In this document: piece after piece, positions 48,003-54,371 of the stretch
Layout: every line of letters begins with the position of its first letter
Position numbering within the stretch: position 1 is the stretch's first letter
From: Candidatus Eiseniibacteriota bacterium
GTDB taxonomy: Bacteria > Orphanbacterota > Orphanbacteria > Orphanbacterales > Orphanbacteraceae
Length of the DNA stretch: 64,000 bases
Direction: 5' to 3'
Assembly (NCBI GenBank): GCA_029262235.1
Contig: JAJCZU010000003.1
Coordinates: forward strand, 62,001-126,000
Notes under the pieces: generated by a model
Databases searched by the model: none
Seen by the model: the letters and a program-made list of their open reading frames with translations, nothing else
Told to the model about the DNA's origin: nothing
Position numbers and translations under genes: made by a program

Positions 48003-48677
48003 TCAGGCGGATTCTCCTGTGGGATCGAGCTGCAGCAGGAACGGATTCGTGCGTCGCTCCTCGCCCATGGTCGTGTCGGGTCCATGCCCGGAATGGATGG
48101 CGATCTCGTCGGGGAGGGTACGCATGAGGTCGCGCAATGTCCCCATCAGCGTCGCGTAGTCGCCGCCGGGGAGGTCCGTGCGTCCGATCGACCCCTGAAA
48201 GAGCACGTCGCCGCCGATCATCCGGTTATCCAGAAAGAAGCTGACGCTGCCGGGAGAATGACCGGGCGTAAGTAGAAGGGAAAGAGTCAGGCCGGCGAGT
48301 TCGAGCTGCTCGAGGCCGTCGAGAAGATGGTCGACTCCCGGCACGACCGGAGGCGTGATTCCGAACAGGCGCGCGTGGTCGGGCGCCGCTTCGAGGATCG
48401 GAATCTCGTGGGAGTGCAGATAGAACGGGATCGAGTAGTGGTCCTTCAGCGCCTGGACGGCGCCGATATGGTCGAGATGCGCATGGGTGTTCACGATCGC
48501 GACCGGGGACCAGCCGCGCCGGTCCAGTTCGGTGATCAGGCGCTCGGCTTCATCGCCGGGATCGATCACGATCGTCTCGGGCGAGTCGGTCGCCTTCAGG
48601 AAGAACGTGTTTTCCTGGAACGGGCCGACGGTGATTCCGAGAAGTTCCGTGTAGTCGTGTTGCGTGCGCGTGTTCAA
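48003..48677 (-). CDS. Metallo-beta-lactamase fold hydrolase, glyoxalase II-like
   Basis: 224-aa soluble dizinc hydrolase. Metal motifs: THAHLDH (HxHxDH), TPGHSPGSVSF, GGDVLF and a final SGHGPDT. Short members of this group act on thioesters such as S-lactoylglutathione or related persulfides; the substrate here is open. The TTG start overlaps the upstream lipoprotein stop as TTGA and has GGGAG upstream. Confidence 0.88.
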   Translation of the reverse strand: MNTRTQHDYTELLGITVGPFQENTFFLKATDSPETIVIDPGDEAERLITELDRRGWSPVAIVNTHAHLDHIGAVQALKDHYSIPFYLHSHEIPILEAAPDHARLFGITPPVVPGVDHLLDGLEQLELAGLTLSLLLTPGHSPGSVSFFLDNRMIGGDVLFQGSIGRTDLPGGDYATLMGTLRDLMRTLPDEIAIHSGHGPDTTMGEERRTNPFLLQLDPTGESA

Positions 48678-49102
48678 TTGTTCTTTGCTCCCTGATCGAT
48701 CCAGTCTGCGATGATTCTCTGCTGCGTGATGAGGAGCGGCGTGCCCGTGAGGGGCATCCGCGATCCGAAGGGCGGCGAGGTCGTCGTTTTGGTGTAGAGG
48801 CTGCTCGCGCCGCTGTTTCCGGGCACGACCGTATTCCCCGTGTTCCCCCCGGCGATCGTGGACGCGTAGGTGCGAAGGTCCAGGCCGCCGTTTCCGACGG
48901 CGGATCCGTGGCAGTTCGAGCTCAGGCACCCCTTGGTCTGCAGAACGGCGCGTACGTCCGTGTAGGTCGACAGCGTGTCCGCCCCGCCGTGATTCCCGCC
49001 ACCGTTGCCGTCGGGTTCCGTACCGAGGTCTCCGCAGCCTGTCATGAGCAGCGCTGTGACGAGCGCGAACGAAAGGAGGCAGGCTCCCTGGAATCGAGGC
49101 AT
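48674..49102 (-). CDS. Lipoprotein with a single CX4CH haem-like motif
   Basis: 142-aa lipoprotein: lipobox MTGC (Cys22), a Gly/Asn-rich linker, then VLQTKGCLSSNCHGSAVGNGGLDL. The latter is like the planctomycete cytochrome c-like (PSCyt) and cytochrome c551/c552-type folds, but the haem motif is C-x4-C-H rather than C-x2-C-H. A Met within SRMPLTG could be the second axial ligand. Ends IADWIDQGAKNN, typical of such domains. Coupled to the MBL gene. Confidence 0.75.
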   Translation of the reverse strand: MPRFQGACLLSFALVTALLMTGCGDLGTEPDGNGGGNHGGADTLSTYTDVRAVLQTKGCLSSNCHGSAVGNGGLDLRTYASTIAGGNTGNTVVPGNSGASSLYTKTTTSPPFGSRMPLTGTPLLITQQRIIADWIDQGAKNN

Positions 49103-49171: not shown

Positions 49172-49212
49172 AAAAAAAATGACCCCGAACGGCGAACCGT
49201 CCGGGGTCATTA
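49172..49212 (-). terminator. Rho-independent terminator after the twin secreted genes
   Basis: Stem AATGACCCCG-ACGG / CCGT-CGGGGTCATT with loop near 49193-49196, followed on the minus strand by eight Ts (plus-strand AAAAAAAA at 49172-49179). Confidence 0.8.
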
Positions 49213-49229
49213 TAATCAAACCGCACTGA

Positions 49230-49943
49230 CTAACGGAAGAGACCCTTGACGTCAGTCCAACTGCTCTGTTCGGTAGCCGTCGAGCCACCGCAGTTGTCTT
49301 CGATCGAGAAGTTCCCGTTCGTATGATGCGTATAACCGGCAGGAATCGTGAAGTTGCCGTTGCACGGCGTATCACTGTACGTAGCGTCGATCGTACCGAC
49401 GCAACCCGCGACGAGCGAGCCGTACGTACCACCCTGACCGTAAACCAGATCCGTGTGCCAGTCTCCGGAGATGCCCGGGGGGCAGCCGAAGAGCGCATTG
49501 ATCGTGGTCGTCATGCCATTCGTCGTACCTTCGATCATCAGGGTGCCGTCCGTGAACGTACCCGGATTCGCGAAGTCGGCATTAGCGGCCGCATCTTCGT
49601 ACACCTGGAAAGTACCAGGTCCGTAGATCGTGTAATGAATCCCTCCGAAGTCCGTCGTCCCGAGCGACGTCGCAGTCAATTCGAAGGTGTACTCATTCGC
49701 GTTGCTTCCCGTTTCGAGGAAGTTGAGCGGTCCGTTGAACGGATCGGCCTGATAGGCCTCTCCGGTCACGCCATGCAGTGTAAAGGTGTTACCGCCAGGG
49801 TGGCTGTGCGTGCCGAGTACGTACCCGTCCGCGTCTACCTTACCCTGTGAACCCCAATCGATTAAGAAGTCTGTCCCCGCTGTTGCTGTTCCCGTAAGTG
49901 CTGTAACCAATACGAGGGAGAGACCGATGCAGAACCTTTTCAT
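49230..49943 (-). CDS. Secreted beta-rich protein with SW-VK-LF tail (paralogue 2)
   Basis: 237-aa exported protein: signal peptide (ALTGTATAG), then a Thr/Gly/Asn-rich all-beta body with few Cys, and the tail SSWTDVKGLFR. A second ATG was chosen because AGAGAGGA lies 7 nt before it. The body shares layout with the upstream gene (FGGIHYTIYGPGTFQVYEDA versus FGVYTYGPNTFVGLYEDA). The protein resembles PEP-CTERM-like or choice-of-anchor proteins in style but lacks a hydrophobic anchor. Followed by a strong terminator. Confidence 0.72.
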   Translation of the reverse strand: MKRFCIGLSLVLVTALTGTATAGTDFLIDWGSQGKVDADGYVLGTHSHPGGNTFTLHGVTGEAYQADPFNGPLNFLETGSNANEYTFELTATSLGTTDFGGIHYTIYGPGTFQVYEDAAANADFANPGTFTDGTLMIEGTTNGMTTTINALFGCPPGISGDWHTDLVYGQGGTYGSLVAGCVGTIDATYSDTPCNGNFTIPAGYTHHTNGNFSIEDNCGGSTATEQSSWTDVKGLFR

Positions 49944-49967
49944 GTTCTTGTCCTCTCTGTTCATTGG

Positions 49968-50633
49968 TTACTGGAACAGCTCTTTGACTTCGGTCCACGA
50001 CGCGTCTTCGGTGGCCGTAGCGCACAGAAGGCTGATTTCGCCGTCGATGTCCCAGACATAACCGACCGGCACGCCCGGATCGCCATGTCCGATGACTGCG
50101 AAGTCCGTGGTCGTGCAACCGGTGAGATTCGCGAGCTGCGAACCGGCGTTCCAGCCGATCGTGCCAGCGAGCGAACCGTCAAGCGTGCTGAGGTTGACCG
50201 TGATCGTGAGATCAGGGCTGATACCACCGAGAATCAACGCGCCGTCCACAAACGTGGCCGGGGCCGAAGCATTCTGCGGGTTGGTGCCGTAGGCGTAAGC
50301 CGTACCGCCACCGATGGCATCTTCGTACAGGCCGACGAACGTGTTCGGACCGTACGTGTAGACGCCGAAGAGGCCGCCCAGCGTATCCGCGGTCGCGATA
50401 AAGTCCGAAAGCATGTAGAACGTGTACTGGTTATTACCGAAGTCGGTGGTCAGATACGTGCCGTTTGCACTCTGAATCTGGCCAAGGGCTTCGTAATAGT
50501 TGTTCGGTGCCGTGAAGTCACCGCCTGTCACCGGGAACGTATAATCGAACCCGCTGATGTCCACAAGCTGGACGGCGGTGGCCGGTACGGCCACGAACAG
50601 GAGCATTGCGATGGAAATTCTTAGCAATTTCAA
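49968..50633 (-). CDS. Secreted beta-rich protein with SW-VK-LF tail (paralogue 1)
   Basis: 221-aa exported protein; signal peptide (LLFVAVPATAVQ), Gly/Asn/Thr-rich beta body and the tail ASWTEVKELFQ, nearly the same as the tail of the next gene. A TTG with AGGAGGGG 7 nt upstream is the start. The two genes are 25 bp apart on one strand and similar in size, so they form a tandem pair of exported, probably interacting, structural or adhesin-like proteins. Confidence 0.72.
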   Translation of the reverse strand: MKLLRISIAMLLFVAVPATAVQLVDISGFDYTFPVTGGDFTAPNNYYEALGQIQSANGTYLTTDFGNNQYTFYMLSDFIATADTLGGLFGVYTYGPNTFVGLYEDAIGGGTAYAYGTNPQNASAPATFVDGALILGGISPDLTITVNLSTLDGSLAGTIGWNAGSQLANLTGCTTTDFAVIGHGDPGVPVGYVWDIDGEISLLCATATEDASWTEVKELFQ

Positions 50634-52221: not shown

Positions 52222-53298
52222 TCATGGAAGGAATGCGATCGTTTCGTCAAGCCGTCCGACAACCCTGTCGGGCGCGGCGCCGCGTACCTCGTCCTCGTCC
52301 CGAAAACCGCCGAGCACCGCGATCGTATAGAGACCGGCCGCGCGCCCCGCGTGTATATCCACACTGGTGTCCCCCACGAAGATCGACTCACCCGCGCTCC
52401 GGCCGAAATCGGAGAGCGCGCGCTCGATCAGAAGGGGACTCGGTTTTTTCTCCTCTTCCGTCTCAGGACCGTAGATCCGCTCGCACTGCGCAAGGCCGAG
52501 AGCTTCACAGATCTTTTCCGTGAATGGACGCGGCTTGTTCGAAACCACCCCGATCGGAATCGCGCGGTCGGTGAGGGCATCGAGAAGCGGCAGGGCGCCG
52601 GGAATCAGGGCCGTGTGGTCCGCGAGATGCTCGTCGTAGTGGGCGGTGTAGATCGCGTGCGCCTCGTCGAGCCGGGACGCGTGCTCCTCGCCGAGGGCCT
52701 GCGACAGCAGATGCCGTACTCCATGGCCGACGAACGCCCTGATCTCGGGAAGCGTGCGCGTGGGGAGCCCGAGTTTCGCGAGCGCGAAGTTCGAGGAAAC
52801 CGCGATGTCCTGCAGGCTGTCGGCGATCGTGCCGTCGAAATCGAAGAGCGCGAGCCGGAGCGGGGACGGAAGAGGCGCGGGGAGCGACTTCTCAATGTGT
52901 CGCAGAGCCCCGTCACGGGCGAGCGCCTTGATCAGATCGCGATCGCCCTCGAGAAAGGGAAGCGCCGCCGCGTGTTCGGGCGTGACCCACTCGATGCGCC
53001 CGCCGTCGAGCGCCGCCGGTTCGCCACGGAGACGGACCGCGTAGAACTGGAGGTCGACCGTGCGATCGCCGTATTCGTGCACACCCTGCGCCACGAGCGC
53101 GCCGACTTCGGATTCGACGCCGAGCTCTTCGCGCAGTTCCCGCACGAGGGCCGAAAGCGGCTGCTCCCCGTCCTCGATCTTGCCGCCGGGAAACTCCCAG
53201 CGTCCGGGAAATGCGCCTCCGGGCGGGCGTTCCGCCGCCAGCATGCGGTCGCCGCGGACCGCGATTCCGGCCACGACTCGAATCGGGGCCGGGGTCAT
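52222..53298 (-). CDS. MutT/NUDIX - HAD phosphatase fusion
   Basis: 358-aa two-domain enzyme. Residues 1-130 are NUDIX with a complete Nudix box (G-x5-E-x7-REUXEE-x-GU, about residues 40-62) in the MutT-like context EFPGGKIEDGEQPL. Residues 145-358 are a HAD hydrolase with motif I DFDGTIADS, SNKP and GDTSVDIHAGRAAGL, closest to phosphoglycolate phosphatase/PpaX. MutT hydrolyses 8-oxo-dGTP to the monophosphate; the fused phosphatase could remove the remaining phosphate, or act on another monophosphate. The ATG has no strong ribosome binding site. Confidence 0.88.
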   Translation of the reverse strand: MTPAPIRVVAGIAVRGDRMLAAERPPGGAFPGRWEFPGGKIEDGEQPLSALVRELREELGVESEVGALVAQGVHEYGDRTVDLQFYAVRLRGEPAALDGGRIEWVTPEHAAALPFLEGDRDLIKALARDGALRHIEKSLPAPLPSPLRLALFDFDGTIADSLQDIAVSSNFALAKLGLPTRTLPEIRAFVGHGVRHLLSQALGEEHASRLDEAHAIYTAHYDEHLADHTALIPGALPLLDALTDRAIPIGVVSNKPRPFTEKICEALGLAQCERIYGPETEEEKKPSPLLIERALSDFGRSAGESIFVGDTSVDIHAGRAAGLYTIAVLGGFRDEDEVRGAAPDRVVGRLDETIAFLP

Positions 53299-53358
53299 AT
53301 ACGGACCCCGGGCCGGTCGCTCAAGAGTCTGCGGCGGGCTGTCGATCCTTGGAAAGTT

Positions 53359-53439
53359 ATGCGGAAAGATATCTGGTTCGGTGTGATTTTTACTCTCTTC
53401 GTGCTCAGCGTTGTGATGGTCCAGGCCGTCCACCGCTAG
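53359..53439 (+). CDS. Possible 26-aa single-pass membrane peptide
   Basis: ATG with GGAAAG just upstream; peptide MRKDIWFGVIFTLFVLSVVM followed by VQAVHR. It has a charged N-end, one hydrophobic helix and a basic C-end, like known small membrane proteins. It lies on the plus strand between two minus-strand genes and overlaps the trxB tail by 4 nt. No homologue can be checked here; it may be chance. Confidence 0.35.
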   Translation: MRKDIWFGVIFTLFVLSVVMVQAVHR

Positions 53440-54371
53440 GCGAGGCCGTTCTCCGCCAGCCAGCGCTCGGCATCGAGCGCCGCCATGCATCCCATGCCCG
53501 CCGCCGTGACCGCCTGACGATACACGTGATCCGCCACATCGCCTGCCGCGAACACGCCGGGCACATTTGTACTCGTGCCGTTGCTCACGATGGCGTACCC
53601 GTTCTCGTCGAGTTCGATCTTCCCTTCGACAACACTCGTGTTCGGAACATGCCCGATGCCGAGGAAGAGCCCGTCCACGTCGAAGTCGGTCACCTCATCC
53701 GTTTTGCGGTTCTGCAGACGAAGCCCCGTGACGACATCGTCGCCGAGGACTTCCGTCACGACCGTGTCCCAGATGAAATGCACTTTGTCGTTTTCCATCG
53801 CGCGGTCCTGCATGATCTTCGAAGCGCGCAGTTCGTCGCGACGATGAATGACGTGCACTTCCGACGCGAACTTCGCGAGATAGGTCGCCTCTTCCATCGC
53901 CGTGTCACCGCCGCCGACCACGGCAACTTTCTTCCCTTTGAAGAAGAACGCGTCGCAGACGGCGCAGGCGCTGACGCCCTTGCCCATCAGGCGCTGTTCG
54001 GACTCGAGGCCCAGGAATCGCGCGCTGGCACCTGTCGCTATGATCACGGCGTCGGCCGTTACGCTCTCCGCGCCCCCGTCGAGCGTGACCGTGAACGGAC
54101 GTTTCGTGAAGTCGACTTCGCTCACGGTCTTGAACATGCAGTCCGCGCCGAAGCGCTGGGCCTGCTTGCGGAAAATGTCCATCATTTCGGGGCCCATCAC
54201 GCCGTCGGCGAAGCCGGGATAGTTTTCGACGTCAGACGTGATCGTCAGCTGCCCGCCCGGCTGCTCCCCTTCGAAAACCACCGGGGGCAGTTCCGCGCGC
54301 GCGGCGTAAATCGCGGCCGTCAGCCCCGCGGGGCCGCTGCCGACAATGGCGACTTTATAATGCTCTTTCAT
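53436..54371 (-). CDS. trxB: Thioredoxin-disulfide reductase
   Basis: 311-aa flavoenzyme that reduces thioredoxin with NADPH. FAD site VAIVGSGPAGLTAAIYAAR, active-site pair CAVC (most members have CATC), NADPH site VVGGGDTAMEEATYL, and the FAD end GVFAAGDVADHVYRQAVTAAGMGCMAALDAERWL. The ATG overlaps the pepA stop as ATGA and follows GGGGGATC. Operon with pepA. A redox partner for the bacilliredoxin/thioredoxin pool. Confidence 0.95.
   Translation of the reverse strand: MKEHYKVAIVGSGPAGLTAAIYAARAELPPVVFEGEQPGGQLTITSDVENYPGFADGVMGPEMMDIFRKQAQRFGADCMFKTVSEVDFTKRPFTVTLDGGAESVTADAVIIATGASARFLGLESEQRLMGKGVSACAVCDAFFFKGKKVAVVGGGDTAMEEATYLAKFASEVHVIHRRDELRASKIMQDRAMENDKVHFIWDTVVTEVLGDDVVTGLRLQNRKTDEVTDFDVDGLFLGIGHVPNTSVVEGKIELDENGYAIVSNGTSTNVPGVFAAGDVADHVYRQAVTAAGMGCMAALDAERWLAENGLA

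Follow-up and report, generated by a model that had tools for sequence, protein, structure and literature searches.

A nine-residue C-terminal tail on many exported proteins, likely to act as a modular sorting tag

Two beta-rich exported proteins encoded side by side in the window (the whole stretch of DNA that was analysed, 64,000 nucleotides from a Candidatus Eiseniibacteriota genome) end in nearly the same residues, SSWTDVKGLFR and ASWTEVKELFQ. The question raised by this locus is whether so short a terminus belongs to one gene family or is a signal carried by many unrelated proteins. The features of the locus are the following.

49968..50633, minus strand: gene A, upstream member of the pair; exported beta-rich protein of 221 aa with a TTG start
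49971..49997, minus strand: tail of gene A, WTEVKELFQ, nine residues, from the motif matches (G000:C3:111974-111997, which is window 49974-49997, plus the last codon)
49230..49964, minus strand: gene B; exported beta-rich protein of 244 aa from 49964, or 237 aa from the ATG at 49943
49233..49259, minus strand: tail of gene B, WTDVKGLFR, nine residues, from the motif search
49178..49211, minus strand: intrinsic terminator-like hairpin beyond gene B, 15 pairs and then a T run
48674..49102, minus strand: PSCyt1-type cytochrome gene whose product starts like a lipoprotein, immediately after the pair and the hairpin

Genes A and B lie end to end on the minus strand, and each encodes a signal-peptide protein of about 220-240 residues. 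The start of gene A, a TTG after AAGGAGGGG, was picked by eye and gives a signal peptide-like N-terminus, MKLLRISIAMLLFVAVPATA. Gene A ends in ASWTEVKELFQ (ATEDASWTEVKELFQ) and gene B in SSWTDVKGLFR (ATEQSSWTDVKGLFR); the C-termini of the pair read TATEDASWTEVKELFQ and TATEQSSWTDVKGLFR. Two terminator-like sites were found in the region against 2.3 expected by chance, the site after gene B having the longer stem. A relative of the PSCyt1-type body (32% identity, E 2e-10) bears the tail at another locus, L077. Elsewhere in the window a single ORF (52222-53490, minus strand) joins a Nudix domain (residues 71-189) to a HAD-type hydrolase domain (residues 212-416), both above the Pfam cut-off.

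The original prediction had described the pair as tandem secreted paralogues with a common C-terminal tail, and this held: the proteins were 30% identical by BLASTP (E 3e-14), and both have signal peptides and the tail. It had also claimed that the bodies had diverged far more than the tail. Judged on the pair alone this contrast is modest, with 67 of 187 positions matching (36%) when the last 16 residues are left out compared to 11 of those 16, but across the genome, as described below, it is overwhelming. A second-round profile match of the window proteins was inflated by the common tail and was dropped as evidence of body homology. Neither gene had a Pfam family at E up to 1, and the 261-aa ORF of gene A had no match in Pfam or NCBIfam. 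The body of gene B weakly resembles PepA, a flocculation-associated PEP-CTERM protein (NF033554, E 1.8e-5, 24.7 bits, cut-off 80). The AlphaFold model of gene A, built on 8 sequences, was poor (mean pLDDT 48).

A DNA-level search of the window's genome for W-x-x-V/I/M-K-x-L-F/Y returned 53 matches, compared to 3 for the reversed pattern. Translation around each match showed that the tryptophan was the ninth residue from the C-terminus in 50; the remaining three were two internal copies at locus L061 and one tail that is one residue longer. A tail found only in this pair would have refuted the prediction, and this is clearly not so, since there are dozens of tail proteins. With a tail profile (E up to 0.1), 86 tails were found in this genome. 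To these counts can be added a sample chosen without regard to the motif, the 632-kb contig C3 with 509 crude genes, in which W occupied position -9 in 11 of 186 signal-peptide genes (8 of the 11 being tails) and in none of the 323 other genes. At every other position from -1 to -20 the signal-peptide genes had W between 0 and 5 times. Codons vary among 54 tails of this genome (Lys: AAG 35, AAA 19; Arg: CGG 21, CGC 15, CGA 9, CGT 3, AGA 2), and this free variation indicates that selection acts on the protein. The internal copies at L061 (G000:C4:1094400-1099700) lie in tandem lipoprotein genes that are fusions of two units, both with the tail at their end. The internal tail is intact in two cases and has decayed in a third gene of the cluster (SSTWTQLLSLFDW), which makes this a natural test of whether tail function is restricted to the C-terminus.

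The motif first proposed, S-W-x-x-V-K-x-L-[FY], can now be refined to [ST]-W-[GST]-x-[VI]-K-x-L-[FY]-R-COOH; E is frequent at -13, and tails of the window's own genome tend to have T-x-T-E ahead. In a pooled profile of tails with W at -9 (56 from this genome and 185 others) the residues were mostly [ST] at -10, W at -9, G/S/T at -8, V/I at -6, K at -5, L at -3, F/Y at -2 and R at -1. The canonical end was present in 246 of 9367 distinct ORFs in all DNA examined, from which ORFs under 80-110 aa, depending on the script, were left out. Departures comprised tails with 1-9 extra residues after them, two that were one residue short, four ending in Q and two intact-looking internal copies. The absence of R-for-K exchanges among the 246 canonical tails is partly built in by the search patterns, because the genome-motif and multi-genome patterns demanded W and K and all but the first also demanded R. 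The unbiased figures are those from contig C3 and from the 49 tails outside the bait set, of which 41 come from named loci and 8 from contig C3. In these 49, K was present every time and the last residue was R in 48, Q in one and K in none. One variant has F for W (NASFGSVKSLFR). No true R-for-K exchange occurred among them; the sole R-for-K match ends in P and looks unrelated. The loosest regular expression gave one R at -5 in 241 ends.

These figures bear on the possibility that the tail is an amphipathic helix that binds membrane directly, as a peripheral anchor of exported proteins at the inner face of the outer membrane. FtsA and MinD have C-terminal membrane-targeting helices of the kind this model would require. 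The helical moment of the tails is raised (0.59 against 0.40 for shuffled sequences), their composition is rich in W, F/Y, K and R, and the model of gene A has a short helix at the tail, albeit at very low confidence. However, the beta moment is raised too (0.51 against 0.39), the tail keeps an almost constant distance from the C-terminus, and a lipid-binding helix should allow K and R to exchange, which the tails not used as bait do not do. The failure of K and R to substitute for each other makes a lipid-binding helix less probable than capture by a receptor, and we consider it an unlikely explanation. Receptor capture is itself an inference, drawn from the discrimination between K and R and from the nearly fixed end position.

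The original prediction had proposed searching for the tail on other proteins with signal peptides, and many unrelated ones were found to have it. A signal peptide was recognized in 226 of 234 distinct tail proteins by a permissive heuristic that allows any start codon, nine of them being lipoprotein-like; the figures were 224 of 241 when the first 12 starts were used and 105 of 128 under a stricter heuristic. All eight tail genes of contig C3 have a signal peptide, compared to a background of 186 of its 509 crude genes that pass a comparable test. No LPXTG was present in the last 60 residues of any of the 234 proteins. Single-linkage clustering divided 233 tail proteins into 82 body clusters. 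Between cluster representatives the mean pairwise identity was 0.673 over the last nine residues, 0.204 over the preceding nine and 0.068 further upstream.

The bodies that could be named are of kinds that carry other termini elsewhere. Among the 136 of 234 tail proteins scanned against Pfam and NCBIfam, Pfam matches included right-handed beta helix (9), NHL (2), CHRD (2), lamin-tail (2) and copper-binding (2) domains, and NCBIfam matches (E up to 0.01) included choice-of-anchor V, J, X, W and C, the MYXO-CTERM-anchored MXAN_6652, the PEP-CTERM families ScyF and PepA, and ExeM. 'Choice-of-anchor' domains are those that occur with different C-terminal anchors. Ten tail proteins were scanned singly, and three matched any family: L163:1066-1683 is a choice-of-anchor V protein above the cut-off (91 bits against 42), L124:4071-5054 matches ScyF with E 1.3e-79, under the cut-off (268 bits against 350), and L015:1498-2238 matches ExeM in its N-terminal part only.

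In two cases the same kind of body was found with the tail in one protein and a domain resembling that of the type IX secretion system (T9SS) in another. At a locus labelled Latescibacterota (L131), a 180-residue one-domain tail protein (L131:2999-3538) is followed by a 614-residue protein (L131:4023-5864) that has three copies of the same domain (35-37% identity) and then a T9SS-like C-terminal domain (CTD; TIGR04183, E 5.4e-4, 19.9 bits, cut-off 23). Scanned singly, the tail protein itself matched no family. Similarly, a beta-helix protein with the tail (L189:4712-6436) is 36% identical over 255 residues to a protein of the window's own genome (L235:4674-6047) that ends without a tail in a T9SS-like CTD (E 2.6e-4, 20.9 bits, also under 23). 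Although both CTDs fall just under the TIGR04183 cut-off, these pairs show that the tail sits where other lineages, or the adjoining gene, place a sorting domain. Related bodies that end in T9SS-like CTDs, or that resemble PEP-CTERM, MYXO-CTERM and choice-of-anchor families, argue that the tail acts as an interchangeable sorting tag. For the same reason, that the bodies resemble those with other sorting or anchoring termini elsewhere, the proposal of a sorting or anchoring signal is supported and favoured over a generic conserved end; location remains an inference without experiment.

The tail is not confined to one lineage. The strict pattern occurred in 26 of 386 genomes spread over the domain and the reversed control in three; some of the genomes with a single match are probably chance. 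When 39 of these genomes were searched with the tail profile (E up to 0.1), 19 tail-rich genomes in 8 families had 20-86 tails each. The other 20 had few or none: one each in G080, G221, G087 and G357, two in G108, five in G109, one each with E near 0.1 in G051 and G150, and none in twelve. A stricter pattern applied to named genomes gave 115 stretches, 80 of which were listed with labels: Candidatus Eisenbacteria 25, Krumholzibacteri- 4, Latescibacterota 3, Gemmatimonadetes/-ota 3, and one each for Neomarinimicrobiota, Zixiibacteriota, UBP1 and Fibrobacter, the rest having no phylum name. These labels are the submitters', and several stretches come from one genome. The labelled phyla are usually placed in the FCB assemblage.

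It remained conceivable that the tail is a relic of one duplicated gene family, or a DNA or RNA element that overlaps gene ends. The pair in the window does consist of true paralogues, and L071 and L213 are tandem families, but the 82 body clusters, the free codon variation and the spread over genomes labelled as several phyla already contradict this reading, which is all but excluded.

Genomes of three families (f75, f82 and f46) have essentially one tail each. It ends a protein of about 130-150 residues, TWGSIKALFR or, in f46, TWGSIKAMFR, which is also found at L120 (loci L275, L276, L277, L286 and L120). The body is about 30% identical between families while the end is preserved, and no Pfam family above cut-off was found for it. 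In f75 an M23-peptidase gene is close by; f46 has a gene nearby whose start looks similar, without Pfam confirmation. The protein was rejected as a core component of a tail system, as full-length matches were restricted to f75, f82 and f46 (60 genomes searched) and L120, with none in tail-rich genomes. The near-solitary occurrence of the tail in these genomes raises the possibility, and no more than that, that it began as an ancient binding peptide and was later adopted by many cargoes.

The search for co-distributed machinery only bracketed the answer. The T9SS translocon protein SprA (TIGR04189) was above cut-off in all 19 tail-rich genomes, none of which had fewer than 61 matches to the type A CTD model, and in 10 of 41 other genomes. 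In all genomes searched, SprA was above cut-off in every tail-rich genome that is at least 90% complete. Less complete tail-bearing genomes (69-86%), G394 (14 tails), G395 (26) and G404 (15), lacked SprA or had no more of it than a match of about 50 residues; in G397, G413, G417 and G420 there were only fragments under the cut-off. Conversely, G015, G067 and G163 have SprA without tails. In the phylum of G200, SprA was above cut-off in 38 of 47 genomes, and the number of tails varies while SprA hardly does, which is why the T9SS cannot be sufficient. The T9SS is compatible with the tail and perhaps necessary to it. One family of this phylum, f268 (G422-G430), provides a natural loss experiment in which the reader of the tail might be sought: its nine related genomes retain 0-3 tails, and seven have SprA above cut-off (G425 has only a fragment and G427 only a side match).

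Other candidate partners were rejected. Exosortase (PF09721) is not required, being present in 8 of 19 tail-rich genomes and absent from 11, including all seven searched from the window's family. An expansion of the PorV family was excluded by overlapping counts: 9-15 in nine tail-rich genomes of the G200 phylum, 6-10 (lower on average) in seven f268 genomes and 9-15 in three other tail-poor genomes. Clustering of neighbours at 115 loci revealed no dedicated gene neighbour; one large cluster covered 20 loci, with one displayed member ending in a T9SS-type CTD, and all others covered at most 4. No tail receptor or processing enzyme was found by comparing gene neighbourhoods, SprA, exosortase and the PorV family. 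Peptidase_C25 (gingipain/PorU-type) had 12-27 matches per genome in G075, G216, G345, G140 and G277.

A tail that acts independently of the T9SS is possible. Here the tail would dock non-covalently to a dedicated envelope receptor, or be trimmed and attached, as a soluble-peptide analogue of the PEP-CTERM/exosortase system, and the T9SS would merely be part of the phylum background. In its favour are the near loss of tails from f268 despite SprA, the three tail-less genomes with SprA, the lack of similarity between tail and CTD, and the single small protein of f75, f82 and f46, which suggests one old receptor-ligand pair. Against it, no co-distributed gene was identified, SprA was above cut-off in each tail-rich genome at least 90% complete that was searched, and bodies have been swapped with T9SS CTD-like proteins.

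We favour the reading that the tail is a short, modular C-terminal sorting tag, bound by a receptor in the periplasm and used as an alternative to the T9SS CTD; this is likely but not established. Its modularity, the heuristic signal peptides, the end position, the near-invariant W, K and R, and the related bodies with T9SS-like CTDs are shown. Recognition by a receptor and delivery to the surface are inferred, there being no experimental data on protein location; delivery to the outer membrane or surface rests on the exchange of bodies with T9SS-like and CTERM-type proteins. According to this model a tail protein would cross the inner membrane through its N-terminal Sec (or lipoprotein) signal and would then present W-[GST]-x-[VI]-K-x-L-[FY]-R in the periplasm, its carboxylate free, on a short linker containing T, P and E. 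A receptor would bind the nine residues sequence-specifically and hand its cargo on to the outer membrane or the surface of the cell, the tail serving in place of the 70-100-residue T9SS domain. Exit through the SprA translocon by way of an adaptor that reads the tag is a guess and the least certain part of the model, and we lean slightly against it. Short T9SS signals are nonetheless conceivable, since in HBP35 the T9SS signal has been narrowed down to the final 22 CTD residues (PMC11285876).

A bolder reading, for and against which we find the case evenly weighted, is that the tail represents an undescribed class of sorting code: nine residues, free of a membrane span and locked to the end as WxxVKxLFR-COOH, on dozens of envelope proteins per genome in several candidate phyla, read by some unidentified receptor that is neither an exosortase nor a rhombosortase nor part of the T9SS CTD pathway. 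No description of the tail was found in the open-access literature searched, outside which most subscription papers and preprints lie; the terms 'T9SS', 'type IX' and 'C-terminal' were absent from the main text of PMC11495043. If the sorting reading is true, it becomes possible to predict where some 86 proteins of one genome go, as well as many others in phyla that have hardly been cultivated, and T9SS-bearing bacteria may employ, next to the T9SS domain, another C-terminal code that is far smaller. The strictness of the tail means that its reader should be findable by peptide pull-down or complex prediction, and a tail that functions on foreign proteins would be a handy tag for display or export.

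Among known systems, PEP-CTERM/exosortase (PMC1569441) is similar in placing a short C-terminal homology region on many exported proteins, and some tail-protein bodies resemble the PepA and ScyF families. PEP-CTERM consists of a PEP motif and then a transmembrane helix. The tail proteins differ, with no PEP in the last 40 residues of any of 234 and a hydrophobic C-terminal stretch in only one, and in 11 of the 19 tail-rich genomes exosortase is missing. The MYXO-CTERM/myxosortase system (PMC11980579) likewise marks dozens of proteins per genome, and it and GlyGly-CTERM/rhombosortase (PMC3237569, PMC6219818) share related bodies with the tail proteins (choice-of-anchor V with a weak MXAN_6652 match, and the N-terminal part of ExeM). 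Their tripartite tags include a hydrophobic region and a basic terminus, whereas the tail has nine residues, the last an arginine, and is without a hydrophobic region.

The closest comparison is with the T9SS type A CTD (TIGR04183), also a C-terminal signal of exported proteins, which occurs in the same genomes, on related bodies and once in adjacent genes. That CTD is an Ig-like beta-sandwich of 70-100 residues, and its end tolerates extension in the cases tested (PMC11285876); the tag is about 9-16 residues with near-invariant W, K and R. TIGR04183 was absent from the 25 of 32 NCBIfam families displayed for the 136 scanned tail proteins. Contig C3 contains eight tail genes and, by a home-made profile, 18 CTD genes, none having both; the 18 are a lower bound, as five of the eight seed sequences of the profile were wrong ORFs. 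The tail is not a T9SS type A CTD and, unlike the CTERM tags, it has no hydrophobic segment. Its occurrence satisfies one thing that would be asked of T9SS cargo, namely that the translocon SprA be present (19 of 19 tail-rich genomes), T9SS-dependent export itself being no more than a guess. It also meets the general criterion for a C-terminal sorting tag, one terminus common to many exported proteins whose bodies are unrelated.
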